Of a DNA stretch of 64,000 bases, positions 362 through 23,359 are shown piece by piece. Positions within the stretch are counted from its first letter, which is position 1, and every line of letters begins with the position of its first letter. The notes beneath the pieces are model-generated. The model saw nothing but the letters and a program-made list of their open reading frames with translations, had not been told where the DNA came from and searched no databases. The DNA is from Antrodiella citrinella (lineage: Eukaryota; Basidiomycota; Agaricomycetes; Polyporales; Steccherinaceae), in the NCBI GenBank assembly GCA_004802725.1, contig SGPM01000008.1, forward strand, positions 124,001 through 188,000. The letters run 5' to 3'. Both the position numbers and the translations under genes were made by a program.

Positions 362-393
<32 letters not shown>

Positions 394-2817: not shown

Positions 2818-4403
2818 TTAGAGCGAAAATGATTGTGGATGTGGGACAGGCGAGGAATGAGAGATGACAGCCTGGGGCAGTGGCGTTGGGGGTGCCAAGT
2901 AAAAGACTGAGAGCGGTGAAGGAGGTGAGCTTGCAGGGTATTCGTCTGAGACAATAATGCGATGAGGCTCTGCTGAAGGTGTGGTCTCATCGTGAGTCTC
3001 GGTGGCCGAACAACTGAAAGATGAGGTTGGAGATGGAGGGTAGAATACGGCTTTCTCCAGGTCGACGTGAACCACGGCTCGAGGCATGTAGGGAGGAAGA
3101 GTATCAGGGCTCGAGGAAGATTTGAATCCATAGCCGGACCTGCGAGAACATATCGTTACTTTGACGACCAAAGGGTTAAAGCGAAAGGTGCTCACGAGAG
3201 TGCGGTTGTGAAGCCCAATTTCTTAGCCCGAGAGAGTGGTTTGAGGCCGAGCTTGGAGACAACATAAGCCAAAGCTGCCACATAATTCCTTCTTGCCTCA
3301 TCTGCAAACCCGAACAGACCGAAGAAGATGAGAGCTGAGAACGGGTAGATCCAACGACTCATTTCAGCGGAAACTGTGTAAGTCACGCTGCTCCTCCAGA
3401 TGACTGCCGGAATCTGTTCCACGAATGAGAAATTGTAATGCGCGTCGGACCAGGACACCCAAGGGGACAGTTGCAGGCCATGAGTATTGATGTAGATGCT
3501 GAATGCGCTCAGAGGCGTGTTCAAGAGCATCGTCAGGCACGATAGAAGCATCAATCTGAAGTAACGATTGACAGTCATGGAGCTTGCCGAAGAGACAAGC
3601 TCGCTGAACTGTACGCGACGGACCCAAAACGCACGAAGCGTTAGACCTAAGCATCAGCATCAGAATTAGATTGCATTGTATTTGGAAAACGTCAACGAAC
3701 GTACCTGCATAGACAAACGAAATCAAACTGAGGAGTACGGGCCACATAAAAACGAGGGGATAAGCGGGTAGCGTATTGTAAATGGCAGGTGTGCATCCTA
3801 TATCTTCCAGGATATTGAAACGATGACCCTGCACTATATAATCTAGAATGAAGAGAGTCAGGATCCTCATGACGATGGTAAAGCTTGCAAATAAAAAAAA
3901 CGTACGTAGAATCATCACCAGCATCGGAATACCGACGGATATGCATAGATCGATGATAGTAGCGCGTCGGCGCTGTAAATCACATTTGGCGATGAGGGGG
4001 AAGTAGATACATAAGAGGAGAACACTTACTTCTTCTCGTCCGATGCTGATGTTGCGTACTGAGGCAATAGAGTACAATCGTCTGTTAATGCAAAGTGCGG
4101 ATGCTGGGATGCCAACACCAGCCCCAATCAAGAATTTCGTGGCTAACATGGAAGATAAGAAGAAGACATATGAGAGCATCAAGATTACACACAGATATCG
4201 CACCACACAGGAGCTACGTCCTGAAGGTTGCCATGCCATATCAGAGAGTCAACGAACTCTATCAAGCATGCAAACGACGCCCATATCATATAGGCGCAAG
4301 TTCCAGCGTTCCAAGCTTGAAGATGCCATGGGAAGGGAACCAGCGACGCGACGAAGCCTACAAACGCGAAGATAGGAAAAAGTGGGTAGGTCGGATCAGA
4401 CAT
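2818..4403 (-). CDS. STE3-type pheromone receptor 1 (B mating-type)
   Basis: Seven-transmembrane fungal pheromone receptor of the STE3 family; it binds a farnesylated peptide pheromone and signals through a heterotrimeric G protein at the plasma membrane. Exons 4403-4193, 4142-4030, 3972-3906, 3842-3705, 3646-3196 and 3139-2818 sum to 1302 nt, giving 433 aa. Family hallmarks: the N-terminal segment ending APVWCDIS, the loop HYIVQGHRFNILEDIGC, TVNRYFRLM, and FADEARRNY after the last membrane helix. The C-terminal tail is Ser/Pro rich, as is usual for regulated receptor tails. Start chosen because MSDPTYP matches receptor 3 (MSDPSYP). Exon lengths 211, 113 and 67 are identical to receptor 3, so 1 and 3 form one subclass. 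HMG-type sites lie upstream at about 4520-4635. Confidence 0.95.
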
Positions 4404-4519
4404 TCGAGAGCGCGATATTGGGGGATATGTCGAAGGAGACTGACAACAGAGCCAGAGGGAGTAGAGACTGGCATGGCGAGGAAGGGTATAGACCTTTAAT
4501 GCGAGCTTGGTATAAGCGA

Positions 4520-4635
4520 CGACAATGGAGGACAATGGGTCTTTGTGGCAAGAGCCTTTGTGACAACCCTTTCGCGAATCCCTTTGTGACTAGACGCTGG
4601 TACCCGTGGGAATACTGTCAAAGTCCATTGTTCAA
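4520..4635. promoter_or_regulatory. Cluster of candidate HMG-box (pheromone response) sites upstream of receptor 1
   Basis: Two ACAATGG sites (about 4522 and 4532), three CTTTGTG sites (about 4540-4595) and CCATTGTTC at 4625 lie within 115 bp. In other fungi, Ste11/Prf1-type HMG proteins bind ACAAAG/ACAATG-like sites before mating genes. The same core recurs before most pheromone and receptor genes in this window. Function is inferred. Confidence 0.5.
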
Positions 4636-5494
4636 GGCGCGTGCTCAGTCGATGATGCGTAGGATTTTGACACAAGTCAAGGGAAGCGTCGTGCGTGCGT
4701 CGACGCAGTGTCACTTCGGAAAATATGGTCGTCGAGTTCCTCAGCACTGTCAATGCTCGCGACAAGTTTTCTTACCTTCGAACAAGTACCGGTTCAAGTT
4801 GGGTGTGCCGAGCTTTCAAGTTGAAGGTATTCGAAACAATCTTAACGGATGAAGAAAGGCGATTTGGCAAGGGGCTCAAGTCGGTAGAGGTGTATAGTGA
4901 GGGCAGGGCGACTCTTCTAGATAGATACTCGCCAACAGTCACCGCTAAATCTCAATGAACAAAACGTTCGATGGCACACGACGAAAGTTTCAGAGCGATG
5001 TCAATGGTGCAGCAGCGATGTATAATGTTATGGGTCGAAACGTTACAACGCAAGCGTAAGAGGATGGAAGGCGAATAACAATCAAAAAATACAGGATGGT
5101 GAAAAGATAGAAGGAGAAGGCAAGCTACAAGGGTACAACACTGAAAATAGCGCAATTGGTACGGATTTCGAGAGCGTATAACGGAGATAGCAATGAGACA
5201 TGCAAAGAAGCGACGTGGTGACGGAGGGTTAAGGAGTGTGGATCGGGATCTGCAACGACAAACAGAAATATAGGAACAGAGAGAACGAAGTCAGAAGTGT
5301 GAAGATGGGGTGTCAAAAGCGAGCACCGAATGACGTTATGGGTATAAGTGAGAGCATAAGTTACAGCCAAAGCCGTAGCAAGATACTGGCTGGGAAAAAT
5401 TGAATTTAGCGCGATCCAGGAGGGGAATGGTTTAGAAGGTACTCACGTAGCGGATGTTCGAGCGTACAAATACATTTGCTCTGTTTCAGCGAGA
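4636..5494. other. Intergenic between receptor 1 and pheromone 1
   Basis: No open frame here looks coding. The part next to 5495 probably holds the 3' untranslated region of pheromone 1. Confidence 0.35.
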
Positions 5495-5674
5495 TCATGC
5501 GATCACGCAGTAGGAGTGAGAGTCGTTGTTGCCAAGATGCTCTGAATCTACCACTTTCGTGGGCTCGAGAGATCTTTCGGCATGGCTCGTAGCAAGAGTG
5601 ATTTTCCCTTCGGGAGAGGATAGTAGACTGTCTCCGCAGAGCAGGGAATCGTCGAATGCTTGGAACTCGTCCAT
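5495..5674 (-). CDS. Pheromone precursor 1 (59 aa, CaaX = CVIA)
   Basis: Single-exon 59-residue precursor beginning MDEF and ending SHSYCVIA, the farnesylation box. In basidiomycetes such precursors are farnesylated at the Cys, trimmed of the last three residues, carboxymethylated and cut internally to give a peptide of roughly 10-14 residues. The likely cut lies before or after the E-H pair (EHLGNNDSHSYC), but this is inferred. TATA box TATAAA (reverse) at 5790-5795, 121 bp upstream; an ATTGTTC site lies further up at about 5830. The original open frame is longer upstream; this ATG is preferred because every other precursor here starts MD(E/T/S/P) at the same spacing from its TATA box. Confidence 0.93.
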   Translation of the reverse strand: MDEFQAFDDSLLCGDSLLSSPEGKITLATSHAERSLEPTKVVDSEHLGNNDSHSYCVIA

Positions 5675-5789
5675 TGCTATGATATGATTGTGTGAGGTTG
5701 AGAACGATGGTGAAGGATAAGTTCGAGTATGTGCGGGGGGCGTAGAAATCGAATCAGAGGTGAGTTTGTAAAGCCAAATCCGCAGGCTT

Positions 5790-5795
5790 TTTATA
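5790..5795 (-). promoter_or_regulatory. TATA box of pheromone 1
   Basis: TATAAA on the minus strand, 121 bp before the start codon; eight of the nine precursor genes have one at 97-132 bp and the ninth at about 200 bp. Confidence 0.6.
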
Positions 5796-5837
5796 CGCTC
5801 CAGGACGCACAATGGATTTTGAACAGGTGATTGTTCG

Positions 5838-7500
5838 CTGCTCGGCATTATATCGGCGGACCGCCGGATAGACGGCACCGCTAGTCGGACTTTCAAATAT
5901 CAGGCACCCTCCAAATGGGACAATAGCCCACGCTGCTGCTGAGCTCGAAACTTGCCGTTCCACCACCAATTTGCGACCTTTCTGCGACATATGGAGGTAC
6001 CGGTAAGCATTGTTACGCATTTCTTGATCCTGCACGAATCGGGGAGATGAGGAGAGCAACGTTTAACCTTAATCTTCTATCTCCGCTCGATGAGATTACT
6101 TAGTACCATGGTTCAGGTCCGACTCGGAACGGGTGTGCTCCTCGAGTCTCATGGCGGTTTGCGACTTACTCCCTCTTCTATTGCAACGTACGCTCATCTA
6201 TGGCGGTCTCCATGCGTACTTCGTGCCGACATAGCCTTATGCCGCGAGGTCTATAGGCCCGGGTAGTCATACCGAATCATGTATTCCGAGTCGTGCTTCC
6301 GAACCGGTTATCCACACGCGATGCGACCGTAACGCTCAGTATTCTGGCGATATCGTCTTCAAGTTGGGCCCATCGATGGGCTCGGATTATTTGATAGACG
6401 GCGGACTACGGCGAACCGCTCCTTCCGCACGTCGCGAAGTCTCCTGCGATTTTGATACCAATTGTACTACTACCTGCGACGAATTACCTGTGGATTTGAA
6501 CTATCCAAGGAGCTGGGCGTACGCCAATTTCCCTTCGCAGAAGTTGACACCTCCGCCCGTCAAACGTAAACCTCTCACTTGGGAGGCTCGTTACCACTTG
6601 CCTCGCCCTCCTCCTTGCTGACCTCAAGGCCTCCCTGGTAGGAAGTGCAACTCTTGGAAAGGCGGAAACGATACCACCTTCTTCCACTCGTCTTCCACTG
6701 TCTTCTGGACGGACCCTCTTCCCTCCCGATTCCGGCCTTCTGTACGTACATATTTTGATATAGAAAACACATGCGTTCTGGACTATCCATTTTTCCAGTA
6801 CATGCAGTTCTATTCTGGTGACGTCTGCTCCGGGGTCTTGGCTTGAGTCGACATCGAACGTGAAAGTGCCTGCCCGAAAGTTATTTGAGCCTTCTCTCGC
6901 ACATTTTGGAGTCAATTTACGCGACCAGCATGTAGTGCTCCTAAACTCCCCGATCTCATACCAAGTCTCGAACCTGACATAACTTAAATGCTATTCTCTA
7001 ATCAGGTCCAAAGCCTAGCGTAGTTCGTACAGTCTCGTATGGTCTCGATATTCGTTTGTCACCTGGAGATGCCTCAGTCGAATAGCTCGATGACAGCCGT
7101 GCAGAAAGGTACTGTTGGAATCACGATTGGATTTCGATGTATGTAAATGGGAGGAGAATACAGGGTATCGTACAAATATAAAGAGACATTTCAAAGAGGA
7201 AGGCAAGGCAAATAATACAGACTAAGGAGCGTGCGTTCGCTGCGGCAAGGCAGCATGGAGAATGAGATGAAGCGGAACGGGGGTGGGAGTCATAAGCGAC
7301 AAATCGCATGTGGTGTAATTGGGAACGGTAGAGGAGGGGGTAATCTGCCGGTGAGAACATGTGAGACATCAGATAGGAACAATGGATTATCATCACATAC
7401 GATGGAGAGAGGTTTCGCATTTCGGATGATCGCACGGCGACGAGGGGATAGACTACTGCACGAGGGTAAGTCAGACGGTGGGTAGGACGGCAGCGAGGAG
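5838..7500. other. Intergenic, no convincing gene
   Basis: Several open frames of 60-140 codons occur but none has a family motif, a CaaX end or sensible splice sites. Confidence 0.35.
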
Positions 7501-7528
7501 ACGAACTTACTATCAATGATATCTGAGA

Positions 7529-7660
7529 TCAAGCAACGACGCATTGCGCGACTTGTATGCCAGAGCCCTCGGTTTCGCCATTGACAGGCGGTCTAGTAGC
7601 GACTTCCGCGGACGGGGAGTTGTCGCTGGTGAGAGCGGGTACGGACTGTTGGGGATCCAT
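7529..7660 (-). CDS. Pheromone precursor 2 (43 aa, CaaX = CVVA)
   Basis: 43-residue open frame starting MDPQQS and ending GIQVAQCVVA. It is too short for most gene finders. The tail GxQVxQC is shared with precursors 3 and 4, so the three are one ligand subfamily. TATA box on the minus strand at 7779-7784, 119 bp upstream. A GTAAGT donor follows the stop codon by about 20 bases, suggesting an intron in the 3' untranslated region. The likely N-terminal maturation point is near the Glu residues (GETEGSG), inferred only. Confidence 0.9.
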   Translation of the reverse strand: MDPQQSVPALTSDNSPSAEVATRPPVNGETEGSGIQVAQCVVA

Positions 7661-8240
7661 AGATGATAATGAGGTAGATGGTTTCAGAGAGTGATTCTAT
7701 GGATGCACGGGGGGTTCGCAGAAGAATAGTAACAGCAACGCGGTGAGAGTAGGTGATCGAGAAATCAAGTGCCCCGGATTTATACAGTTGTAAAGCGCTA
7801 GTGAGACAGGAACGAGGGGGCCGAGGACTCCGACCAATTCCGGGCGCAATCATTAGCACATATTCGACCAAGTGCCTCTTTCAGGCGAGGAAGGGTTGCG
7901 GCTGTACGGGTCGCCGGAGAGAAAGCGAACTCGTATAATTCCACGGCACACGGTTGAATTTGTCCAAGCTTGATCTCTATTATAAGAGATGTTATCATGC
8001 GAACGCAAAACGTGGTAGTCATGAGACAGCACTCACCATTTCGCGCTTTCGCCACAGTTTTGTGTCCTTTCGACGCAAACTTGGTGAGCGTCCTAATCAA
8101 GAACCTAATTTCCAAACAGAGCAGTCCCTTCGGATTCTAACAAGCATAAGCTTCACCAAATAGCTGTAAATCTTGCAGGCCGAGCTCACGCTGCAGTGTA
8201 ATCGGGCATGAGCGCTTAATATGGCGGCACGCTCGGCACG

Positions 8241-8322
8241 ACAATGGGAGTCCTTTGTCCCAACGAACAATGGGTTTTCTCACAACCTCTGTACCGCGCA
8301 GATGCATGCAGGACAGTATAAA
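8241..8322 (+). promoter_or_regulatory. Promoter of pheromone 3: HMG-type sites and TATA box
   Basis: ACAATGGG at 8241, CCTTTGTCC at about 8252 and GAACAATGGG at 8265 precede TATAAA at 8317-8322, which is 117 bp before the ATG at 8434. This arrangement resembles the other pheromone promoters. Confidence 0.55.
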
Positions 8323-8433
8323 GAGTGCGCCAGTTCAGTGCGCATTCCCGCAATCTTTCGCTGAACTCCATTCCACCGAACGCCTTGAGCAACCTCTCGA
8401 ACCCACAACACTACCCATCTTTTCGAATTCACA

Positions 8434-8562
8434 ATGGACGAATTTCTCTCGTTGGACATGTTCACGTCCGAGACTCCCGACAACACACTACCCATCGACA
8501 CTCCCGTAGATTCCGAATATGCGAACTCGGGGACGCAAGTGTGCCAATGCACTATCGCGTAG
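8434..8562 (+). CDS. Pheromone precursor 3 (42 aa, CaaX = CTIA)
   Basis: 42-residue precursor, MDEFLSLD at the start and TQVCQCTIA at the end. The penultimate segment QVCQC carries an extra Cys two residues before the prenylated Cys, as in precursor 4 (QVCQCVIS). It is transcribed away from precursor 2. A likely cleavage site is the acidic D-S-E-Y region about 13 residues before the Cys. TATA box at 8317-8322 and HMG-type sites upstream. Confidence 0.92.
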   Translation: MDEFLSLDMFTSETPDNTLPIDTPVDSEYANSGTQVCQCTIA

Positions 8563-9516
8563 CAGCGACCTGTCAGTATGATACTTTCCCCAGCTTTGTC
8601 GCACCGTTTGCTTATTGCATTGCATTTCTATAGCCGTAACAAGCTATATCATACCCATTCATTCGTCATTTTTATATCCATGTATTGGACCTCTCCGCTT
8701 TTCAACCCGTAAGTCGTAGCCATCTATGTTCACTTCGTCTGTCAAGTTCCTCACACTTCACTTCGTACCTCAGTTGACCGCAATCTGCTGTGCAGGCGAA
8801 GATATTTATCCATATCTATGTCCTCCGTACATTCTATACTCCACCTTCCTTCCTTCTGCGTTCGTGTAACCCCTCTTTCATCTTTTCTCGTTCCGCTGCA
8901 CTACAGCTTGAATTCCGCGCCCATGTATTACTTTGTATCCCTAGTACTCGATTATACAACGTCACGCTTGGTACCGCCGCACCCTATCCTATGATGGTCC
9001 GACACAATGAGAACGTCTTTCACTGACTCCCATACTCTGCCCTCATGTCGCAATGTGACTTCTACTTGTAAGACTGTACATTATGGGGCCGTACGAGTAT
9101 TTTTCACCTCGGTGTACCACCACCGTCAATGGTCAATCGTTCCTTGTGCACCGTTGAGGAGCGTTCGTCGAATCCTCCCTCCAGACTTGAGATTGGCACG
9201 TCCTGGACATCTTGTCTACGCGATCTAGCGTGATTCTTGTCCAAGAATCCTGCTTTGCCGTGCTGTCGACACGAGATCGCACGTACTGGATACCTTGCCT
9301 ATCCAACGTCGTACGAGGGCTGATTTGAGGAGAAGACATGAATGCGAATGTGATAATATTACATTGATCTAGTATCAGGAATGATATAGCATGCAGGTAT
9401 GTGCACTGCGAAGTGAGGTATAAAGAGATACGGATACAGCGTGTCGTGAATCGTAGAGTGGAGATAGAAAATCGGAGATGAGAGACGTTGGAGAAGAATT
9501 GAGGGGCTCGAGCGTC
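8563..9516. other. Intergenic between pheromone 3 and receptor 2
   Basis: A possible 3'-UTR donor (GTCAGT) follows the stop of precursor 3 at about 8575. No other coding signal seen. Confidence 0.3.
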
Positions 9517-11098
9517 TCAGACCATCTCTGCACCATGTTTGTCGTTTTCGATAGTAACATGATGGCGTACGGAGTCGGTTTGGAGTGTAGGTTCCGGGAA
9601 ATGAGGGGTCGGGGGCGTGGAAGGCCTCGAAGCAGGAAACTCGTCTGAGACAGATATATGTCGAAGGATATCGACGGAGAAAGCAGATTCGGATGGGGAG
9701 GATATCGCTGAGAAGCGGCATGCTTGAAGAGGTTCGTTGTGCTCCACTCCCTTCTCAAGATTGAATTGGCTCTGAGACGCCGACATGGTCTTGGAGGAAG
9801 TAGGAGAATAGAATGTGCTGCCAGTAGAAGGCGTGTAGCAGGGAGGGGAATGGTCGTCGTCTGTAACAGAATGGAACTTCTGAACAAGGAACCGTTGAGG
9901 GGAACTGAAATAGTATCCATTAGCGAAAGTCGTCAATCGAGTGGCGGGGAAGCAGTACCTATTCTGAGATGAAAGCGAATCAAACGCTTTCGTCTTCGGG
10001 GTAGGAGACCTCCTGAGGAGGACGCGTTTGATCCAGTCAATAACGTGCTTGCAATCATTCTTGGTATCCTCGCCGAAGGCGAAAAAGATGAAGAAGATGT
10101 AGGCGGATACAGGCATAGCCCACCATATGATGAGCATCTGTTGAAGGTACTGAGGAGGGAGCTCAAAAAGACGGTAGGTGGCGATTCGACCAAAGTCCGA
10201 GTGAACGTCAGCCCAGTTGGTCCACGGCCGCAGGCCGGGAGCGATGTTGTCGTACATCGCGACAGCGTTGAGAGATGTGCCCCAGACAATCTCTGTGACT
10301 GCCATCGCCATCAAGCGAAGATAGCGGTTGGTATTCAACGACGAATTGGAGCTGCTGAGATGCGAGGCGAATGTGATGCGTTGTCTGAAGAAGTGATAGA
10401 GTGCCAGCGCTGAAAGCCCAAGGTGTAAATATCAAGGAAGAACATGCACGGCCAACACGATAGAGTACTCACATGAATAGATAAGGGTGAGAACGGACAA
10501 GAGCAAGGGAGGAAACCAAACGATGAAAACGGCCGGCACAGAGTAGTAAACGGCAGGTTGGCATCCAAGAGCCTCTACGATGTCAAACCGATGACCCTGG
10601 ACGACGTAGTCTGTGGGAACAGGTTAGATGCAGCACAAACAATGATTCAATGTTGGACGTACGCAATGCCATGAGAACGATTGGCACCCCCCAGCACACA
10701 AGCAGCTCGAATATCCTCCGCCGGCGATGGTCTTCATGTGTCAGGCGCACTGTCCTCCCCGACGCCACCATTTCCAAATGTTTGCAGATGCAGAGCGTAG
10801 CCGCAGGAATGGCAGAAGATGCACCGATCATGAGTTTGGTGACTGTATGAAATATTGAGAACGAGGATGTCGGATAAGACTGAGCGCACCACGTACCAAT
10901 ATCGCACCAAACGACGACGTGCGGTGCAGAGTTATCCGCCCACACCAGAGAGTCAATGAAGTAGATTAGATTCATGGCGAAGAGCCACACGACCAGGGAC
11001 ACGGTTGCAACATTTCGAGCGCGCCAGTGGGCAGGCAAGGGAACGAGAACAAGCACGGCGGCGATGAAAGAACCTGCTGGGAGCGCCGAAAGAAACAT
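9517..11098 (-). CDS. STE3-type pheromone receptor 2 (B mating-type)
   Basis: Exons 11098-10897, 10842-10663, 10610-10473, 10409-9959 and 9904-9517 sum to 1359 nt, 452 aa. STE3 features: VVWCDIVTKLMIGA, HYVVQGHRFDIVEALGC, NTNRYLRLMAMA, and FGEDTKNDC after helix 7, followed by a long Ser/Pro-rich cytoplasmic tail containing ISVSDEFPASRP, similar to IVSDEYPASSP in receptor 1. The second exon (180 nt) equals exons 2+3 of receptor 1 (113+67), so this receptor lacks that intron and belongs to a different subclass. The 451-nt fourth exon has exactly the same length as in receptor 1. The last intron (54 nt) is a multiple of three, so the frame is open even if it is retained. HMG-type sites lie upstream. 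Confidence 0.95.
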
Positions 11099-11199
11099 GA
11101 TAGCAGAGAGAGATGAGAGGCGGAATGGGTCGGTGACAGGGCGTTGACCCTCACCTTCATATTGCTATCCACAAGAGAGAAGGCGTTCGAAAGGGCATT

Positions 11200-11280
11200 G
11201 TGCATAGAACAAAGGGAGTCCGTCGTTCATTGTTGTTCAAAGCAGACAATGAACCCATGCAACAATGGCGTGCAGTGTAT
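11200..11280. promoter_or_regulatory. Candidate HMG-box sites upstream of receptor 2
   Basis: GAACAAAGGGA (about 11208), TCATTGTTGTTCAAAG (about 11228), ACAATGAAC (about 11247) and ACAATGG (about 11272) lie 110-180 bp before the receptor start. This is the same ACAAAG/ACAATG core seen at the other mating genes. Regulation inferred. Confidence 0.5.
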
Positions 11281-11926
11281 AGACGCCCAAAATATCTTCG
11301 GCGCCACTCCGGGCCTCCTGCGTGTTTCGCTCCCAATGTTACCACCTGTCAATCGAATGGTCGTGCTTGAAAACATACGGAACCGGATAGCAATATCTAT
11401 TCGAACGCTTCTTTCAAGTTGAATGTGGTTCTTTAACACAGAAATCGTCAAGAGACTCCAAGTCGCTCAGATCATGGCCGCGGCGTTATGCATACTACAC
11501 GGATAGATTCGGTATACAAGTGACAGAGACATGAGGACAGGTAAACGCGACGTGGTAATACAAATACAGACAGGATGACATCAAGAAAGACGAGGAAGGA
11601 GTGTGTGATTGCAGCAAGCAAAAGTGGGACGAACAATCTGAATATATGTGACGAATCGAACGAAAGAAGAAGGCATGACGACGTTCCTCGATACATAGCA
11701 AATAATTTTAGCTGAGTACGACAAGACGGAGCAGATTCTGCAAGTTGCTAGGAGTCAGTAAAGGAGGATATAGAGAACGGATGATCACTGACTTGGAGAG
11801 TAATATACACGCGGTTCGCAATATTGGTGCATTGTGATAGTATGAGTACAACGTCTGAGAATAGCAGATGTCAGAGAAAGCCCGCCTCGTAGAAATAAGA
11901 GAGACGCACTGGCGAGAAGATGGCCA
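11281..11926. other. Intergenic between receptor 2 and pheromone 4
   Basis: No gene seen. The stretch nearest 11926 is probably the 3' untranslated region of precursor 4. Confidence 0.3.
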
Positions 11927-12073
11927 TCACGAGATGACGCACTGGCAAACCTGGCTGCCATCGTTGCTATACTCCTCGTTCACGGGAATAGCAGACGGCA
12001 ACCCGGAGACAGTTTGGTTGGAGAGAGGTGTGACCTCGAAGGTCTGGGAAAGCATGCTATCGAACTCGTCCAT
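11927..12073 (-). CDS. Pheromone precursor 4 (48 aa, CaaX = CVIS)
   Basis: 48-residue precursor starting MDEFDSML and ending SQVCQCVIS. Its tail is nearly the same as that of precursor 3 (TQVCQCTIA) although the two lie on opposite sides of receptor 2. It sits in the opposite frame direction of a longer spurious open frame and is easily missed. A TATA box on the minus strand at 12271-12276 is about 200 bp upstream, further than for the other precursors. Ser in the last position of CaaX is acceptable to farnesyltransferase. Confidence 0.92.
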   Translation of the reverse strand: MDEFDSMLSQTFEVTPLSNQTVSGLPSAIPVNEEYSNDGSQVCQCVIS

Positions 12074-12454
12074 TGCAACGATAAGTGGAGTGTTATTTCA
12101 AGACGGTGATGTAGGCTGGACTAGAGTCGGATGTGCTGAAGCTGCGATTGCGAGGGCAGAGTGCGATGCGATGGTTTGCAGTGAATTCCGCTCCCAGGAT
12201 CTTATATGCATGGGATGTACGGGCCGAATCATCCCGGGCGCACAAAAGACAGGTCATTGTTCCACCGGCGTTTATACACTCACCGCTTCGGTTCTTCATC
12301 GCTCTGCGGCCACATCCCGACGCATTACTGAAGACCGTCGACCACGCCAAAGTAAGAGTCAGACGTTCTTTACGAATTTCATCGGTGAGTCGGAGACACC
12401 CCATTTGAAGTAGATGTGACTTGACGGATGGTATATTAGTCACAGGAACTGCGT

Positions 12455-12505
12455 GAGTAACACGATTGTTCAAAATTCCATTGTCCTCCCGGGTGGGTAT
12501 ATAAA
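12455..12505 (+). promoter_or_regulatory. Promoter of pheromone 5: HMG-type sites and TATA box
   Basis: GATTGTTC (about 12464) and CCATTGTCC (about 12478) precede TATAAA at 12500-12505; the ATG at 12633 is 133 bp further on. The divergent precursor 4 could share these sites. Confidence 0.5.
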
Positions 12506-12632
12506 GTCGAGGGCTCGAAGCTGAATTTCTCACCTCACAAACACTCATCCACCACGCGCCTGCGTATCTTGCGTCTTTGTATCACTCACTTCCTGAACCC
12601 TACGCCTGCACACCCGCGCCGTCTGCTATACC

Positions 12633-13424: not shown

Positions 13425-15650
13425 ATACATGTACCGAGAACGGAGGCGTGCGTCTCGCAGTCGGCTTTGCAACCGGGATGTCAGCCGTGTCGGAGGGACC
13501 GCGAGACGCAGATTGGGAAACGAACTGGTTGTGAACCGCTGCGGCTTACACATGGAATGGTGAGTTCTAAACCCGACTGGAATACATGTATGGAAGGATC
13601 GAGGCGGACATATCTGTTTAGTTTGCAACTAGACCAAGATGACAGCCGTCCGCGCTACATAGCTGCTGCAACGCGAATGGGAAAACGGACCGAGGATTCC
13701 GGCTCACACCTTGGGCGAGTTTCTGAGCAAAGGATCGTCCTCGTCAGCATCTGGTCACAACTGGAGGCGCACACCTTCGATTTGCAATCAGACCTCGGTA
13801 CCAGCCGTCCCCGCATGAGCCGTGGATCGTGATGGGAGCACGTTGGTCCGCAGTGGCACGAGTAGGATTCTAAATCAAACTGAAATGGTCAGCCCTGAAC
13901 CAAGATACTCTAGAGGAGGCAGATATACAGGGCTATCCAGTTCGCAATTAGACCAAGATGCGAGCCGTGCGTCAGCCACTGTGGCCGATATCGCAATCGG
14001 GCAACGCACATTAGGAAACGAACTGGGGACAACCAGCTGTAGTGCGGCTCACGCGCGGGTCAGATTTCGAACCAGCCTGTAGCTGTCAGCCTATATGTGC
14101 AGATGGAGGCGCACATGTTTGTCGGATTTATAACCAGACCAGAGGGTCAGCCATCCTTGATTGAGATATGTTAGGAAACAGACGAGGGGCTGTCGCGCAT
14201 ATGCCGGGTTCTGGTTCATACGAAACTGCCAGCAGAATGACCTACGTATCAAAAGGGAAGACATACCGTGACTGATCACGACTTCGATCGAACTCAGCAG
14301 CTTGAACATAGACGGTCGGATAGACACAGGTGGCAATCAGATGTTCATGAGGCGACGGATTCGATGGGATTAGGTACTGGACCAAGCTGTCAGCACGTAT
14401 ACAATATCTGAAATTGGAGACGTACCATAGTTAGAGTATCAACCGCGGTTGACGTGACAACGGTGTTTGAGAAATGGACCGAGGTGTAAGCCGCTGCGAG
14501 TCATGGGTGAACGATTGTGTTTAGAAGCAGACTGAGATAGGCATACTCACAGGTAGAGACGTACATATTCGTTGAATTTGCAACTCGACCAAGGCAGCCG
14601 TCCGCGTCAGCCGCCGCTGCAGCGTAGATTGCGAAACGGACTGAAGATGCGGCACACGCGCAGGTCGTATGCTAAATCAAACTGTAGTCGTCAGCACAGA
14701 TTCACAGAGGAAGACGTACATGTTTGTTCGGTTTACAATTAGACCAGAATGTCAACCATCCGCGTCGCCATGGCCGTGAGGCACACATTGCAAAGCGGGC
14801 GGGAGGGAATGCCATCGCGGCTCACGCTTGGATTGAGTTTCAAACCAGATTGTATGATTGCGTACATCGTCATCGCTTTCGCATTCGAGGCAGAGTACCA
14901 ACCAGCCAAACCACCGTTGCCCTGATCTATATTGCAACCTCGGGAAACAGTGCAAAAGTCGAGTTCTGGTTCAGAGGAAATTGTTAGCATATACGATTCA
15001 CTTCTACTGATATCAAAAGGAAGACACAGATGATCCAGTTTGAATTTTGCAGCTTAAACATGGATTACCGCCCAAAGGTGTCAGCCTTGGCGGGTGAGTT
15101 TGGGGCGTGTGATGGCTCGTATACGGATCCGACCCAGGATGGGCTGACGTGGCATTCGGATGTGTTCAGATCTAAACCGAACTGTCAGTACCTCGTATAC
15201 ATGGGATGGAAGTGGAGGCGTACCACCGGAGTGTCACTGTCAGCGGTGGTTTGTATCGCAAGCGTGTAAGTAGTTCAAGTTGCGGCTCATGCATGAGAGG
15301 GCCTGTTTCAATGCAGATTGAGAAACAGACTGGCAGTACGCGCCGCCGTGGCTACGGCTCACACATGGGTCGAGTTCCAACCCAAACTGGAATAGTCAGC
15401 CAAAATCGATGTGCATGAAGGCGAGAGCCGTCCCACGTCAGCCACTGTGGTCCATATCACAATCGTGCAGCGGAGCACCGGACACATTGGGAAACGGACT
15501 GAGGAAGCGAACCACGGTGAACATTGCGGTTCACGCATGGGACGGCCGAGTTTCAAACCAGACAGCCTAAATTCACAAAAAGCGGCGTACATGTTTGTCG
15601 GATTTGAAACTGGACCGGGATGCCAGCCATCCCACATAGGCCACCCTGTG
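13425..15650. repeat. Degenerate tandem array of about 160-bp units
   Basis: About a dozen diverged copies of a unit run head to tail. Each unit carries, in order, versions of CAGCCGTCCGCG, GGGAAACGGACTG, GCGGCTCACACATGGG, GAGTTTCAAACCAGACTG, GAGGCGCACATGTTTGT and GGATTTGCAACTAGACCA. The CAGCC(G/A)TCC landmark occurs near 13482, 13641, 13803, 13965, 14146, 14594, 14752, 15428 and 15622; neighbouring spacings are mostly 158-162 bp (some 180-195). Copies differ by many substitutions, so the array is old. It lies between pheromone genes 5 and 6 inside the mating-type locus. No coding capacity is evident. Confidence 0.85.
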
Positions 15651-15659
15651 CAGCTTAGC

Positions 15660-16260
15660 GGCGTGGTCCATGAGGTATCCACTATCCTCCGAGCCTTCGC
15701 CATTTCAGCGGTCCGAATTACCAAAAGCTTACTCATGTCGTGTGATCATCAGGACTCACATTGGGGAGCTGCTGTCATCAATACATGCTCAATAGATTGC
15801 CTCCGAACGCGGGCCATGTACGACAACGCGAACTTGAAAGCAGGCGGTGTGAGAGCATTACGGGCCGTCAAGTTGGGCGCAGGGCATCCCACAGCGGGCT
15901 CCCGAGTGTACAGAAGACTCAATTCTGTGCATGCGCGAGATACAAGGCATTCTAGGGACGCGCCACCTGCCACCTTCATGGTTCACTGTTCCGAATACAA
16001 CATCTTATCAGCTTCATCCGAGCTCTCCGGCCAGAGACTTACCTGAGTACTACTAGTCATGGACTCGGATTCTCGTTCTTCAAAGATGAGCGCCTTTGGA
16101 GGTGAAGTAGTATCAGTTCCACTTTGCTTCGCTGCGCGTACGATCTTGTTCTCCAAGTTGTGGCGCACCGCGGCATCTATAGTAGGGTCAGTTTTGGATG
16201 GATGGACGCGATTTGCGCGTGCAGTGTCAGTGGCGGGGGATGGCAGTATTTGTGCGTGAT
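15660..16260 (-). repeat. Duplicated gene relic, copy A
   Basis: This block and 18370-18960 share recognisable stretches: ACTCATGTC plus a following ACTCAC, then the segment around GAGCGCCT with GTTCTTCAAGTT(T)GTGGCG. On the minus strand there is an exon-like piece 16173-16042 with a good acceptor (CTATAG before ATGCCGCGG) and a good donor (CAG then GTAAGT); it would encode a hydrophilic peptide containing ENKIVRAAKQSG and FEERESESMTSS. This looks like the decayed end of a minus-strand gene that was duplicated. Family not recognised. Confidence 0.5.
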
Positions 16261-16458
16261 TGGTTCGTACTAAGCGCTCATTTATGCGTCTGTACGTGGA
16301 TCCTCGGAGCCGCGAGCCTCATCCAACTTATCGACTTGCTGATAGTCCAAACTTGTAGGGGTCAGATATGTGTTCTGCGAGCTCTGTCCTTGTAGAAACC
16401 CCCACTGTAGCGGTTCTGAATCCGGATACAGGACTCGGAGAATTGACAAATTCTGACC

Positions 16459-16640
16459 GAACAATGGCATAACCAATCGAGGATGCATGCGTACCGGGGG
16501 CTCAAGCGCTCAAGCAAGCTCAAGCAGTCGCAAGCAGTCGCGACTCGCAAGCAGACCTTGGGAAGAAAATCTCTCATCGATATCGGCTAAAAGTTCTAGA
16601 TCACTCGTGACCCATCGGCCATGTGGCGTCCCAGTATAAA
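16459..16640 (+). promoter_or_regulatory. Promoter of pheromone 6: HMG-type site and TATA box
   Basis: GAACAATGG at about 16459 and TATAAA at 16635-16640, the latter 131 bp before the start codon. Short CAAGCAGTCGC/CTCAAGC direct repeats lie between them at about 16500-16555. Confidence 0.5.
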
Positions 16641-16765
16641 AAGACAGCGCCTCGAACGCTATGCCCCCACCTGCACGCCCGTCATTTTATAGCCCACTTG
16701 TTGCACAGAGCTTTACCCACCTTCGTAACATCCACTTCTCACGCAACTCCTACCTACGATCTGCA

Positions 16766-16915
16766 ATGGATACTTTCGAATGTCTACCCATCTCCGAGGA
16801 GTCCTTCGTTGACTCTCTCCCGGAACAATCCAAATCCGAGCGCTCTGCCTCGTCCGTTCCCCAGGATGCAGACAGTAACGCTCAGGAATACCAGACCTAT
16901 TGCGTTATCGCATGA
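16766..16915 (+). CDS. Pheromone precursor 6 (49 aa, CaaX = CVIA)
   Basis: 49-residue precursor from MDTFECLP to EYQTYCVIA. Most similar in its tail to precursor 5 (SSVPQ then DSN then YQ-x-YC). The ATG is chosen for the MDTF start and the TATA spacing; the open frame extends upstream. A GTGAGT donor lies six bases after the stop codon, again pointing to a 3'-UTR intron. It stands alone between the tandem array and the relic region, 2.5 kb from the 3' end of receptor 3. Confidence 0.93.
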   Translation: MDTFECLPISEESFVDSLPEQSKSERSASSVPQDADSNAQEYQTYCVIA

Positions 16916-18280
16916 TTCTCTGTGAGTACAACATTTTTCGTCGTCGTACCGAGCCTTACTGAATGTTGTCCGCTCTCAGACTATCACCGTCGTCGAGGGT
17001 CATACCTTGACTTGACCCATTGTCACGACTTCGGGTCTCATCACGCACTTCCCACTTCCCTGGGCCTCTTCTTTTCCTTTGCCCTATCTAAGCCTTCGTT
17101 CAATCCTCTGTTGACTTTATCATTATAACGTCTACCTGTAACGCCAATGATGTCCCTCCATATACTCCATTTTGTTCCCACTTTTCCCCTCATGACACCG
17201 CTGGTACTCACCCGGAACGCACACTCATTCTATTCCCCCCTTGTCCCCCTTTACTTTTTGCCATAGTCATCCCTGTTTGTATGATGTATCGCACGGCGTG
17301 AAGAAGTAGAAACCTTGCCAAGTAATGTACTGAACGAATGCGATTTGACTCAATAGCGCGTCCCTCATCGTCAGCTTCGACCGGCCCGTCCGCTTCCCCC
17401 GCACTTCATTCGAGACCCCAGTACTCAGTATCCACATGAAATGTCTGCATCCATCGATTAGTTACGTCATTGTTCAGTCAGGAGTGGACCGCTAAATGCC
17501 TCATCCCTCGTACCGATATGGGGTCTTCAGCGTATTGGGACAGATTGGGACCTCATACCGGTACTGTTCGCATCATTCACATGGTCACAGTCCAATCAGG
17601 GCGAAATTGAATGAAAAATGCCTCCGTTCCTAGACATATGCATGTGAATATCTGGCGAGAGCTAATCTCTGCGGATCAAAATCTTAAAGCTTACCGGGGA
17701 TATTGATCCCACGAGGTACAGCAGCGGCGTACAAACCTGTGGCGAGACCTCAAGTGCATGAAGATGCAACATGGGAAGGTGAATGAGCGGATTTGGGCAA
17801 TTCGAGCTGCTGGTGTATGGGTTCGACGTAGCGTTGAAGGACGGCATTGAGTATGTAGCACATGTGTCACGATATTCGCATCGTTCGATGAGATGCTGCG
17901 ACCGAGAACTTGGAGACTGCGTGCCCCCCGAGCCGTACATTCGTCCCGAAGGAATGGCAAACGGGCTTCCGAAGGAGCATCCGAGGTGAGGCCAAGCGAG
18001 GCCGGCACGTTGCAACATCAACGGCGGATACCCAGTACCTAGCCCTCCCTCGGGCCCGGGATTGCGTGGCAAAATATGCCTGATGGCGCAACCCATATCT
18101 CCGGGAGGAAAGTGGATACATTCGCGCTAGAAATATCTAGGTTACCTTGCGGTCCAGGAGCCTAGAAGCCGCACGCGATGAGTGCAAATTTCCATGATAT
18201 GCAGGTGACTCACGAGCACACGAGGGTACCGGTTACTGCTGAAGTCCGGACCGCGCTCATATCGAGGGTACGTTTGGTGT
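16916..18280. other. Non-coding stretch 3' of pheromone 6
   Basis: No gene supported. A 144-codon open frame on the minus strand (18096-17662) has no recognisable domain. Confidence 0.3.
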
Positions 18281-18284
18281 ATTT

Positions 18285-18960
18285 TAGACGTACATTCAAA
18301 GTAGCCCTCAGATTCAACCAGACCAACTGGCAGACCTGCCATCCGTCGACGGATAGTAGCTGACAGTGTGACCCATGCGCTGTCGGCGGTAGAGAACTCT
18401 TCTCTCCAATCTCATGCTTGAATCAGCGGTTGGATTTACCAAAACCTCACTCATGTCAATGAGCATGGATGTCGGGCGACTATAGACTCACGTTGCGAAC
18501 AGCCTGTCCATGAAGTCATCTATACAGCCTCAATTTATTGGAGAGTCCGAACGCGAGCCTGAAGGCAGAGAACCTGAAAGCATGCCGTTCGTGAGTTGCC
18601 CGGACCGATGAACGCAAGAATATGCCACCGAGAAGAGGTATGCGGAAGGCAGCGCTATTTGACGCAAGGAGAGGCAAGTCAGTCTGGGGTCACGCCCGGA
18701 CGCAGAGTCTCGCTGCCTCAACTTAGCCTTTAAGCCTGCAATTCAGATCTATGCACTTCGTTAACATGGCCAGAGACTCACCTGAGTAGTCATGGATCCT
18801 CATCCTTGAAAACGAGCGCCTGCTGGAGGTATGTCACTTCCAACTTGCTTTATCATGATCGCGCGGGAGTTCTTGTTCTTCAAGTTTGTGGCGTCTGTAG
18901 ACTATAGCTTCCGGGTCGGTGACGTAGGTACTTCCATAGATAGACATAGTCGTCCGCATT
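18285..18960 (-). repeat. Duplicated gene relic, copy B, with one fragment of the 160-bp repeat
   Basis: CAGATTCAACCAGACCAA followed by CTGCCATCC (about 18310-18345) is a fragment of the 160-bp unit. It is followed by sequence related to 15660-16260, in the same order and orientation. So unit plus flank were copied together, about 2.7 kb apart, on either side of pheromone 6. Confidence 0.5.
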
Positions 18961-19418
18961 AGGGTGAGCAGTTCCCTTTTTCAGCTGTCCGCAGAGCGTC
19001 CAAAAACGCGCGAAACCAGACGACGAAGTCCTCGAGAGCGAAAGCGTCGTCAAGGTCATGGTTGACTATGGCATCAGTGACAGGTGTACAAGGAACGGCG
19101 ACACACACAGCAGCCAAAGATATCTTACACGTGAATGTGGAATACCGAAGCGCAGAATAGGACGGAGGCTTCTCACCGGCGTACATGAACTGACGTCTGG
19201 AAAGCGAAGGGAGATGCTTGCTGTGACGGAAGGAGGATACACACACTGCTGTCAACCCAAGAGGAGACATGAAGTCATCGCAGGAGATCGTATTCGTCGT
19301 TGATGTAATAACTACAATGGGGGCGGTCATGCATGTGAGTACTGACACAAGAGAGTGTGGGTCTATGATAAGATATACAGAGGAGAACGAATAAACAACG
19401 AATGGATCAGAGCGCGGC

Positions 19419-20970
19419 TCATGAGTGATGCAGAGGCAATGAAGACTGAGACGGAGGCGAGGAAGAGTAGAGAGTCGACGGTGTCGGCGGCATCGCTGGC
19501 TCAGCAGCGATGACATGCGCATCGTATGGCGGAAGAGCGGGTGAGTCAAACGAAGAGCATATGCTCTTGCTCGATGACAAACCTGAGGATAACAGGTGGA
19601 ATTTGGAAGTGGAAGACATCGGCGGCGATGGAAGTGGGTACTTGGCAGATGAATCAGCCAACGGCAAAATACCCCTAATGAACAATGATCAGATAAGAAT
19701 ACTAGATTCGACAAATTCGATACGTACTTTGGGTGTCGTATGCTTTTCCAAGGTACGCAGGCCCGAAGTCTCGAGGTAACCGGCAGTAAGAGGGTGGAGT
19801 AGTTTTTCCTCGCTTCCGCAGCGAAGCCGAAGTACGCAAAAAAGACGAATGCGCAGAATGGGGCAGCCCATCGACTGAGCTCGAAGGCAACGGAGGCGTT
19901 GCTGTCTTGACGCCATACCGCAGCCGGTACCTGGTTGACTTGCCAGTAGTCGAAGTGGGTATCGGCCCAGCTGATCCACGGATGCATGGGTGCTGCTGAC
20001 AGGTTGAGATAGAGCCCGTATGATGAGATGGGAATGGTGCACATGAGCTCGGTGGAAGCGAGCGCCATGAGACGGAAATAGCGATTCGTCGTAAGAGATG
20101 GGTTGGATGCCAAGTATTGCGCAAAGGCTGCGCGGCGTCGGAAGAAGGCACGCAATGTCAAGACTGCAGCGGACGTCGAAGTGAGACGAGAACTTGAAAG
20201 ATGAGAGGCGTAACATACCACAGTAAACGGCGGAGACAAGTCCTATCGCTAGAGGCCACACCTGTGACAAAGGATACGAAGGTGGCGTGTTGTAGGTGTA
20301 AGGGTAACAGCCTATGTCTTCAAAGATATCGTAGCGATGACCTGTATAAGAGGGTAAGGGTGAATATCACTACCAGCAAATCTCGTAAGAAAGTCATACC
20401 AGACACTATGTATTCTGAGCAAGACCATGAGCGACAGAACGAACGTAGAGCGTGACGGACTTACGACAAAGAACCTGGAAGAGCGGGATACCTAGCCCGA
20501 TGGAGAGATCAATCATGATTGCACGACGTTTCTGGTAGAGGAATTTGGAGTCAGCATGGAGCCTCAGGAGCGAGATTTTAGGTACGCACCTCTCCTCTCG
20601 AGATGCTGGCTATTTGCACAGACGAGATATGGTAGAGACGACGATTGATACACAGTGACGAAGCAGGGAGGGCAACGGCCACAGCAACAATAATACGTGA
20701 TGCTAAGACGAGAGCGTTAGAAACGATAAGTAATACATGGGAGAGCATCGTCCACTTACAGATGTCGCACCATACTGGTGCATGATCGATGGCGTTTCCG
20801 TGCCAAACGATAGAGTTGACTCCGAGATTGAGGCACGCTACTGCAGACCAGAACATGAAGAGGCATGTGCCTGAGTTCCAAGCTTGCAAATGCCACGGTA
20901 TTGGAAGGAGCGCGAGGACACAGCCTAGGAAAGCGAGAATGGGGAAGGCGGGATAGCTGGGATCCGACAT
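19419..20970 (-). CDS. STE3-type pheromone receptor 3 (B mating-type)
   Basis: Exons 20970-20760, 20702-20590, 20531-20465, 20414-20400 (15-nt micro-exon), 20341-20219, 20163-19728 and 19674-19419 sum to 1221 nt, 406 aa. Start MSDPSYPAF as in receptor 1. STE3 motifs: APVWCDIS, QYIVSGHRYDIFEDIGC, TTNRYFRLMALA, FAAEARKNY, then a Ser/Pro-rich tail ending SQSSLPLHHS. An extra intron splits the exon that is 138 nt in receptors 1 and 2 into 15+123 nt, leaving the product in frame. A very long open frame (20239-18959) runs through the introns in another register and is a coincidence. HMG-type sites lie between this gene and the divergent pheromone 7. Confidence 0.93.
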
Positions 20971-21079
20971 GAGGAAGGCGAAAGAGGAGGACGTCCGGGA
21001 GGGGGAAGAGACTGAGGCATGGTGAGAGCTGGGACCCTGCGAGATATGTGGTCGAGGACAAAGGCCATTGCGCGTACGA

Positions 21080-21211
21080 GTGGACAATGGACGATGGCTG
21101 ATTGTGCACAAAGGTCCATTGTTCGTTTGGCCTCGTGTTTGTGGAGCGTCTGTAGCGTGTAGGCGCCCTATTGCCGACTTCGGCGACAGGCGCTATTTCG
21201 GATTGTATAAA
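21080..21211. promoter_or_regulatory. Shared divergent promoter of receptor 3 and pheromone 7
   Basis: ACAATGG (about 21086), ACAAAGG (about 21107) and CCATTGTTCG (about 21117) lie between the two start codons, which are 340 bp apart; TATAAA for the pheromone is at 21206-21211. The HMG-type sites could serve both genes. Confidence 0.55.
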
Positions 21212-21309
21212 TACCAGGGTCCTCTCTCATCTAATCCGTACCAAAGTCTCGCATACCACCCACCAGTTTTCACGTCGAACGCCTCTCACCTTTCGAAGAC
21301 GCACATACA

Positions 21310-21456
21310 ATGGACACATTCCAACCCATCGAACACTTCTGCGTTGCAGACACTACCGTCGCAGTCTCATCGCCTAGCACCTCGACGTCCGACTCCCCTG
21401 TTGACCTCGAGAAGGAGAGCAACGATGTCGCGAAATTCTTCTGCGTTATCGCATAG
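21310..21456 (+). CDS. Pheromone precursor 7 (48 aa, CaaX = CVIA)
   Basis: 48-residue precursor MDTFQPIEHF...VAKFFCVIA. Its tail (EKESNDVAKFFC) differs from the other subfamilies. The start follows TATAAA by 104 bp. A GTAAGT donor lies about 14 bases after the stop. Divergently placed from receptor 3. Confidence 0.93.
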   Translation: MDTFQPIEHFCVADTTVAVSSPSTSTSDSPVDLEKESNDVAKFFCVIA

Positions 21457-22491
21457 TCAGCATTGACTGTAAGTGTCTGTTGACGTGACTTGTACTGCTT
21501 CGACGCGTGCTCACTTTCTCATCCAGACTCTGCGATGCTCCGTCACCGGACATCGTCTCTCAGGCCGTAAAGCCTCATCCCATCGCACTTTTGTGCTCCT
21601 TATACTCTTCGTCCAACCGTCTTGAGATGTATTCTCTTCGATCCCCACTCTCCTTACTTGAATGTCGACTGTATCCTTATCGACTATTATTCACCGTCTT
21701 TCGTTCCTGTTCATATTCCTTCCATCCTCATTTTCACGCGCCCTCTTTCTCGTCGCGTTCTCTATGTATCCAAAGTCATGTATTTTGTATCTCGACCTTG
21801 CTACACTGCAGTGCGCCGTAGCTACTTTGACATATCTCTCAATTGCAACTATACCTTTGCCACCTCATCCCTATTGCGAGCGCGAGTTCGAACACACCGT
21901 ATGCGACGCAAATCAGTTCGAATTTGCGTACTGAGCGTGAACAACTTCAACCTCCCCGGTGTTCGTTACATAACGTTGCATCGATGGAGGGAGCGCAAGC
22001 ACACGAAAAGCGTATACGACACGGACCCCGACATGGTAGAGTGCCCCGGATGACTTTCAAGTCATCACGCATGGAATCGCAAACGTTTTCACACTGCAGA
22101 ATGAGGAGATAAACAAAATAAATTGATTTGCTTCTTCGTCGACTCGTCGGACACAGATACACGCTACATGGAGTAATTTACAGATAAATAGCGGCTAGAA
22201 GGCTGCTAATAGGAATCGAATGGATGGGGATATGTGCAACAATGAGGGTGTGAGGCGATCTGAGGAGGGATACAGTAAGTAATTGCGACTGTTGAAAATG
22301 AAGACTCAAACGAACCTGAGACGCGCGATGATGAAACGAAACATGAGGAAAATGTGCAAGAGGATTGATAGCGAGGAGGATATGCGGAGATTCGCTGAGA
22401 AACGATGAGCATACGAGCGCGGTATAGGTATCGAAAAGCTTACAGTCAAGGGGAAGGGACCCATATGCGTAGTGCACCGAAGGACGGGCGA
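21457..22491. other. Intergenic between convergent pheromones 7 and 8
   Basis: Contains the presumed 3'-UTR intron of precursor 7 (donor about 21470, acceptor about 21527). Open frames here overlap in several registers and lack motifs. Confidence 0.3.
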
Positions 22492-22605
22492 TCATGCAAT
22501 GGTACAGCTCGCGCCGTAGTCAAATGGGCGATCGTCATCGACGGGAGGCTGAGGAATAGGCTGGGGCTGGGGCTCAGATTCAGGAATAGCGATGAATGTA
22601 TCCAT
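22492..22605 (-). CDS. Pheromone precursor 8 (37 aa, CaaX = CTIA)
   Basis: The shortest precursor, 37 residues, beginning MDTFIAIPESE and ending DYGASCTIA, with a Pro/Gln-rich middle (PQPQPIPQPP). TATA box on the minus strand at 22697-22702, 97 bp upstream, and CCATTGTTCG plus GAACAAAAG at about 22779-22804. The candidate mature peptide starts in the DDDRPFDYG region. Confidence is slightly lower because of the short length and low complexity, but start, CaaX end and promoter all fit. Confidence 0.88.
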   Translation of the reverse strand: MDTFIAIPESEPQPQPIPQPPVDDDRPFDYGASCTIA

Positions 22606-23043
22606 TGTTGGTTACGGGTGCTGTGAGGCTAGTGCGAGTGCAAAAGGGTGGGTAAGGTTGGGTCGCGGGATGTAGTTGTAGACCAAGAGAGGTGCTTTTA
22701 TAGCAGAGGCCCGGGCCGAGTCTAACCCGCTGTTTGCACACGTTGGGACTCACAGGCACAAGGCAGCACGCTGCACCCTTGAACAAAAGAACCCATTGTT
22801 CGATTTTGGATCTCCGCTCATTTCCTAGACGCTCCTCACATTGTGGCGGTCTTGTTCTGTTCACAGGTCGAGTACGAACTCATCGCGCTGGATTTCGCAA
22901 GATTATATCTCAGGTTGCGCACTGTAGCATCTACTCAGCAATGCGACCCCCGATAAGCGGAACGAGAAACAGTGATTTCTCGGCAGAGTCGGCACTGCTG
23001 TGCCGGGTCATCGCCGCCTATCATCTAGGCGCTAAGTGACAGT

Positions 23044-23093
23044 CACAATGGACCGCATATTGTTCGAGCCGGACCAAGCACGCACCATATAAA
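23044..23093 (+). promoter_or_regulatory. Promoter of pheromone 9: HMG-type sites and TATA box
   Basis: CACAATGGAC (about 23044) and ATTGTTCGAG (about 23059) precede TATAAA at 23088-23093; the ATG is at 23204, 116 bp on. Confidence 0.5.
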
Positions 23094-23203
23094 AGGTAGA
23101 CGGCGGGTTGTACTCTTACCTCCTCTGCTCTGCATCGCATACTCCCTGTTGAACAGTCCCACACGCACTAAACACCTCACAACCACTACTCACCTTTGCT
23201 GCT

Positions 23204-23359
23204 ATGGACTCATTCGCCACTTTCTATATCGAGGACTCCTCGTACATCCAAACCGTCATGCTCTCCTCCCCCATGCAGAGCACAACGTCACCCTCATCTA
23301 TCCCTCAGGATGGAGATCATGAGAGCGACAAGACCGGGGTCTACTGCATTATCGCATAG
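23204..23359 (+). CDS. Pheromone precursor 9 (51 aa, CaaX = CIIA)
   Basis: 51-residue precursor MDSFATFYIE...KTGVYCIIA. Acidic DGDHESDK lies about ten residues before the prenylated Cys, the usual zone for proteolytic maturation. It is the last precursor of the cluster; beyond it the gene content changes to non-mating genes. Confidence 0.92.
   Translation: MDSFATFYIEDSSYIQTVMLSSPMQSTTSPSSIPQDGDHESDKTGVYCIIA

Follow-up and report, generated by a model that had tools for sequence, protein, structure and literature searches.

A probable B mating-type locus with three pheromone receptor and nine precursor genes in the polypore Antrodiella citrinella, compared with an alternative version in the same assembly

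Overview

The window analyzed here is a 64,000-nucleotide stretch of DNA from Antrodiella citrinella, a rare wood-decay polypore of the Steccherinaceae (SGPM01000008.1, referred to as contig C581, 124001-188000). Based on gene content, divergence between two versions, a sharp right-hand edge and receptor phylogeny, all of which were observed directly, positions 2,818-23,359 (20.5 kb) are very probably the B mating-type (pheromone/receptor) locus carried by one of the two nuclei of a dikaryotic A. citrinella, with the partner version located on contig C502. The locus contains three intact STE3 genes (R1, R2 and R3), all on the minus strand, and nine pheromone precursor frames (P1 to P9), whereas C502 carries two receptor genes (EUX98_g8847 and g8848, named C502a and C502b) and five precursors (Pa to Pe). 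An earlier sequence-only reading had described the three receptor genes and nine CaaX precursors of 37-59 residues as a B-type locus; its counts and coordinates were right, with nine of nine precursors recovered against a chance expectation of 0.033, and the divergent version on C502 with its sharp edge supports the type assigned. The alternative version, a fourth STE3 gene at ~40989-42150, and the near-unchanged state of P6, P8 and P9 between the two versions were absent from that reading.

Gene content of the locus

The features of the locus, in window coordinates, are as follows.

2818-4403, minus: R1, STE3 receptor, 433-residue model, Balpha-type clade; exons 4193-4403, 4030-4142, 3906-3972, 3705-3842, 3196-3646 and 2818-3139
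5495-5674, minus: P1, 59 residues, ends CVIA
6212-6801: island shared with C502, separating the R1 part from the R2 cassette; identity 88% in 339 columns, followed by 71% in 260
7529-7660, minus: P2, 43 residues, ends CVVA, QVAQC family
8434-8562, plus: P3, 42 residues, ends CTIA, QVCQC family
9517-11098, minus: R2, STE3 receptor, 452 residues, Bbeta-type clade; deposited as EUX98_g913 (P0001)
11927-12073, minus: P4, 48 residues, ends CVIS, QVCQC family
12633-12773, plus: P5, 46 residues, ends CVIS, related to P6
16766-16915, plus: P6, 49 residues, ends CVIA, close partner Pd on C502
19419-20970, minus: R3, STE3 receptor, 406 residues, Rcb3-like lineage of the Balpha-type clade; deposited as EUX98_g915 (P0123)
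21310-21456, plus: P7, 48 residues, ends CVIA, private, adjoins R3; Pc in the same place on C502
22492-22605, minus: P9, 37 residues, ends CTIA, partner Pb on C502
23204-23359, plus: P8, 51 residues, ends CIIA, partner Pa on C502
23537-24190: right flank, where the divergent region ends; differs from the end of C502 at 3 of 654 bases (99.5%)

The receptors were modelled by spliced alignment, and their seven-transmembrane-domain regions are open, with zero frameshifts in the modelled part. R1, R2 and R3 scored 366.1, 335.5 and 365.5 bits, respectively, against Pfam STE3 (PF02076; cut-off 29.2). The R1 frame closes with a GTGAGC...TCGCAG intron at 3140-3195, which was picked from three frame-preserving introns, and R2 is 99% identical to the deposited A. 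citrinella protein EUX98_g913. Exon lengths of 113/67/138 bases are found in R1, C502a and C502b; R3 splits the last of these and R2 fuses the first two. Since receptors of Schizophyllum commune are reported with exon lengths of 110/113, 67 and 138 (PMC8161036), this match was counted for the B-locus reading. Hydropathy peaks (seven in R1, nine in R2, eight in R3, 10 in C502a and 11 in C502b) do not resolve the number of helices finely enough to serve as evidence of exactly seven.

All nine precursor frames, located at 5,495-23,359, start with MD and end in a CaaX box. A rule requiring an MD start, a C-x-[IV]-x end and 30-75 residues gave nine frames in the locus and none in the remainder of the window, compared with a mean of 0.033 and a maximum of one in 400 second-order Markov sequences built from the locus, and with one unconvincing match in five other stretches of the same genome (50 kb). 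When the MD requirement was dropped and a stricter CaaX list was used, the window gave seven frames versus 2.2 in 30 shuffles; therefore, the combined motif and the clustering are what stand out. An extra frame at 30599-30730, ending CLTR and found with a looser CaaX rule, sits within a kinase-like gene copy and was taken as a chance occurrence.

The Pfam Pheromone model retrieved one of the nine window precursors and two of the five on C502 in a genome scan, all below cut-off; motif scanning was therefore used instead, and short-frame searching of this kind picks up precursors that escape the model in a genome scan. The earlier suggestion that the haplotype is under-annotated was upheld in part. 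No Antrodiella protein matching R1 was present in the best 120 of 1313 hits of a receptor protein search that included R1 in the query and restricted match lengths to 0.55-1.75 of the query. A search of the protein collection with a profile built from the 14 precursors, which used at most 100 query words, recovered P6, P7 and P8 (three of the nine in the window) together with Pa and Pe (two of the five on C502); its misses are therefore no proof of absence.

The alternative version on contig C502

C502 comprises 11,892 bases and is collinear, as its reverse complement, with window 6,212-24,190. In the window direction its order is Pe(+), C502b(-), Pd(+), C502a(-), Pc(+), Pb(-), Pa(+), to be compared with P6(+), R3(-), P7(+), P9(-), P8(+) in the right half of the locus. 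BLASTN aligned C502 in order to window 6,212-6,801, 16,247-16,915 and 23,315-24,190, with additional weaker receptor-receptor matches; apart from these few islands, the divergent region is mostly unalignable as DNA between the versions. Identity is 74% (162/220 columns) at 23,315-23,523, and a sharp edge follows at ~23,537, about 180 bases past the last precursor, beyond which the two contigs are nearly identical; over its final 191 bases, C502 matches the window without a difference. The divergence of this flank is in line with the species-wide pi of A. citrinella, 0.0049 (PMC12878558), so the flank differs like ordinary homologues and the interior like an idiomorph. Equal conservation between mates, which the sequence-only reading had named as speaking against itself, was thus not seen in the comparison with C502.

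The culture of the reference strain, DSM 108506, was started from pieces of fruit body (PMC12878558) and is therefore expected to be dikaryotic; we infer that C502 probably derives from the other nucleus of this cultured dikaryon. The two versions occur in one assembly whose contigs carry no nucleus label, and two homeodomain (HD) family searches, which gave a candidate HD pair at C542 ~166.7-168.1 kb, did not demonstrate a heterozygous A locus, so that C502 might instead be a second pheromone/receptor region that arose by duplication within the same haploid nucleus. This is, however, highly improbable: comparable genes keep their order and orientation, the end of C502 merges into C581 at 99.5%, no further copy of window 24,191-27,300 was found save ~155 bases repeated inside C502, and the culture was derived from fruit-body tissue. 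The genome searches covered 602 contigs (30.0 Mb), compared with 1,228 contigs (33 Mb) in the published assembly (PMC12878558), and small contigs may therefore be missing from these comparisons. As a separate observation, window 24183-24341, just outside the locus edge, recurs at C502 5590-5742, between its two receptors (~155 bases, 81%).

The left end of C502 lies near window 6,140, where no near-identical join is present. It is quite improbable that C581 is chimeric, the assembler having joined cassettes of both nuclei, so that three receptors and nine precursors would be an overcount. The assembly was made from Ion Torrent reads (mean 222 bases) with MIRA and joined in Geneious (PMC12878558), and the 88% island at 6,212-6,541, just to the left of which C502 ends, is a possible joining point. 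Nevertheless, 88% is low for a false join of reads of that average length, and BLASTN detected no other extended near-identity within the divergent region.

Comparison of the last 15 residues across the 45 cross-version precursor pairs gave 14 identical residues for P6/Pd, 14 for P9/Pb and 12 for P8/Pa; the next-best pair, P5/Pd, shares nine and all others at most seven. P7 and Pc, which adjoin allelic receptors, share six of the 15. R3 with P7 versus C502a with Pc is the only clean positional allele pair. R2, P2, P3 and P4 have no counterpart on C502, and P5 is weakly like Pd; a second copy of R2 was not found in the contigs searched, the matches being more distant receptors only. The sequence-only reading had divided the locus into three subloci. 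Three receptor cassettes are plausible, but an allelic counterpart is clean for the R3 cassette only, the R2 cassette being without one and the R1 side lying off C502. The receptor neighborhoods would be R1 with P1; P2, P3, R2, P4 and P5; and R3 with P7, to which the conserved P6, P9 and P8 are added.

Receptor phylogeny

Two trees were built, with rows picked for named species and spread. The quick tree has 69 rows, consisting of 61 of the 240 retrieved other-species proteins and all eight own receptors; the careful tree has 39 rows, consisting of 34 of those other-species proteins and five own receptors. Further STE3 genes of the assembly lie at C107:6035-6949 (very divergent) and C86:48033-49100. 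C107 and the fourth STE3 gene of the window (R4) are on very long branches in the quick tree, and C107, R4 and C86 were therefore omitted from the careful tree. In both trees, one deep clade unites R1, R3, C502a and C502b with genes named B alpha or Rcb3, and the other deep clade contains R2 with genes named B beta or Rcb2, these clade labels being the depositors' gene names. The middle position is thus occupied by a Bbeta-type receptor (R2) in one version and a Balpha-type receptor (C502b) in the other, which goes beyond the earlier reading.

R3 is grouped with receptors of Trametes, Dichomitus, Gelatoporia and Cristinia and with Coprinopsis cinerea Rcb3 B45 (99/97), and C502a is sister to a receptor of Cerrena zonata (99/95). 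C502b is placed weakly with Cubamyces and Dichomitus genes (98/77) within a firm seven-row set (98/94), and R1 stands beside Trametopsis and Irpex (88/90). Forced sister pairing of the positional partners was rejected in two-tree approximately unbiased (AU) tests on the careful tree (R3/C502a, p 3.0e-82; R2/C502b, p 7.2e-5). The members of each pair group instead with genes of other genera, as trans-species allele lineages do. In Trichaptum, a trans-species pattern is reported in mating receptors and is absent from linked non-mating receptors (PMC8970355). Cristinia sonorae is assigned to the order Agaricales by NCBI, yet two of its proteins, P0003 (beside R2) and P0203 (in the R3 lineage), nest among polypore receptors, which may reflect either trans-order alleles or a mislabelled genome.

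The neighbors of R2 belong to Steccherinum, Cristinia, Somion, Cerrena and Panus (70-83% identity). Because their relationships look closer to a species tree, a non-mating role is possible for R2, and only part of the cluster might set mating type, with R2 (perhaps also R1) as linked non-mating receptors and the R3/C502a cassette as the specificity determinant. Such linked receptors are documented as STE3.1 and STE3.3 in Trichaptum (PMC8970355) and as brl genes in S. commune (PMC8161036). This reading deserves consideration but is unlikely, since R2 lies inside the divergent region and was not found on C502, and the precursors P3 and P4 lie ~1 kb either side of it, whereas the brl genes are reportedly without any (PMC8161036).

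Several observations weigh against a B mating-type locus with its partner version on C502. The tree of R2 relatives follows species relationships more closely, as that of a conserved non-mating receptor would also do. Among the 602 contigs searched, none supplied the left part of the partner version or an R1 allele belonging to it. The Pfam Pheromone model matches seven of the nine window precursors weakly and none above cut-off. In an alignment read by eye, the canonical maturation site (DR) is present in one precursor of the nine, P9, while the other eight have EH, DH, EY, EF, EK, ET or DS near the expected ER/DR position. The evidence comes from sequence comparison within the assembly of one strain.

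A B-orthologous locus that no longer controls mating type is also conceivable, as Phanerochaete chrysosporium is reported to be bipolar despite three clustered B-orthologous receptors (PMC4101180). A literature search for A. citrinella and mating yielded no account of mating genes or mating system and one ecology title only, and the main text of PMC12878558 does not contain the word 'mating'. Loss of mating-type control is nevertheless improbable: if C502 represents the partner nucleus, very old alleles are heterozygous in the dikaryon, and balancing selection would seem to have continued.

Proposed mechanism

With the locus taken as a functional B locus, the processing, signalling and ligand-receptor pairs that we infer follow the mechanism of the family. 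Each precursor would receive a farnesyl group at its CaaX cysteine, be cut down to a lipopeptide of ~10-14 residues and be secreted. The lipopeptide would be recognized by a receptor of the other nucleus, which could activate the G-protein/MAP-kinase route and thereby permit nuclear migration and clamp fusion; a receptor would never be activated by a ligand encoded in the same haplotype. With P6, P8 and P9 near-unchanged in both versions, recognition between these two nuclei should rest on the private precursors, which would be P1-P5 and P7 on one side and Pc and Pe on the other. If self-activation is forbidden, then P6, P8 and P9, which occur in both versions, could activate neither R1-R3 nor C502a/b. 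These three may be directed at other haplotypes, and small residue differences, as between P8 and Pa, could still affect specificity. A joint proposal, put forward tentatively, is that the nuclei differ in the gene content of the middle cassette (Bbeta-type receptor with QV[AC]QC pheromones versus Balpha-type receptor) and that the three shared precursors serve as signals to third-party haplotypes or in self-directed growth rather than in mate recognition. The locus is ordinary, and the comparison of its two versions, probably both from one wild dikaryon, is useful, narrowing the candidate ligand-receptor pairs to a short list and suggesting which pheromones are non-discriminating.

Comparison with known systems

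In S. commune, a haplotype can carry eight or more Bbeta pheromones; a literature search for this wording found nothing, and a similar one for nine pheromones gave moth papers only. The Bbeta pheromone genes of this species are numbered up to bbp2-9 (PMC12028200); therefore, nine precursors look unexceptional. The earlier remark that the locus is of unusual size for a single haplotype does not hold, because several receptors with several pheromones each are reported as standard (PMC4136793). S. commune Balpha/Bbeta resembles the present locus in having several pheromones per receptor (PMC4136793) and in its linked non-mating brl receptors and exon lengths (PMC8161036), but has two mating receptors versus three candidates in A. 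citrinella. C. cinerea has three receptor groups (rcb1-3) with several pheromones each (PMC4136793), as in A. citrinella, where the R3 set includes Rcb3 B45. In contrast to C. cinerea, the candidate receptors at the middle position in A. citrinella belong to opposite deep clades, one in each version.

In Flammulina velutipes (subloci PR-a and PR-b), alleles of one sublocus likewise belong to different receptor clades and predicted mature pheromones are identical across strains, but the subloci are ~180 kb apart, whereas all lie within 20.5 kb in A. citrinella (PMC5100862). The Trichaptum MATB locus (four STE3 genes) shares trans-species receptor polymorphism, linked non-mating receptors and a nearby PAK gene with the present locus but has two precursors versus nine (PMC8970355). 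Multiple receptors and precursors are also reported in Grifola frondosa (six and five, respectively, over 47.8 kb; PMC10607315) and seven potential precursors in Pycnoporus cinnabarinus (PMC4101180), compared with which A. citrinella has more precursors in a tighter cluster. In Rhizopogon vinicolor, likewise represented by a dikaryon assembly, receptors from different clades are discussed as possible alleles of a single cassette (PMC5473757); allelism is better supported here because a near-identical flank joins C502 and C581.

R4, the PAK-type kinase and other surroundings

~40989-42150, minus: R4, fourth STE3 gene (7TM part), groups with the C86 receptor on long branches
46911-49500, plus: PAK-type kinase with P21-Rho-binding and kinase domains, in three frames

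R4, listed once in the assembly, is probably a non-mating receptor, judging from its sequence and setting. The motif rule gave no precursor frame in the window beyond 23,359 and none near R4; its lack of nearby precursors, its long branch with C86 and its position before the PAK-type kinase are in keeping with linked non-mating receptors reported from other mushrooms (PMC8161036). The kinase, which we read as CLA4-like, is ~23 kb from the locus and was counted for the B-locus reading, as PAK is reported among the genes flanking MATB (PMC8970355).

A kinase-like gene region occurs twice in inverted orientation (window 2-2218 and 30078-32262, 75% identity), flanking the B locus, and ectopic pairing of these copies could invert the locus. 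In the P5-P6 gap, window 12900-16300 contains diverged direct repeats of 50-114 bases that are 63-74% alike. A Glyco_transf_49-like frame is located at 25946-26530, and window 27320-28533 matches contig C253:12021-13313 at 81% as DNA. A perfect 27-base inverted repeat, possibly of a small transposon, is present at 44200-44226 and 44855-44881, ~630 bases apart. The far end of the window (53766-56530 and 62489-63361) contains frames with AMP-binding, PP-binding and thioesterase domains, resembling a nonribosomal peptide synthetase (NRPS), together with a cytochrome P450.

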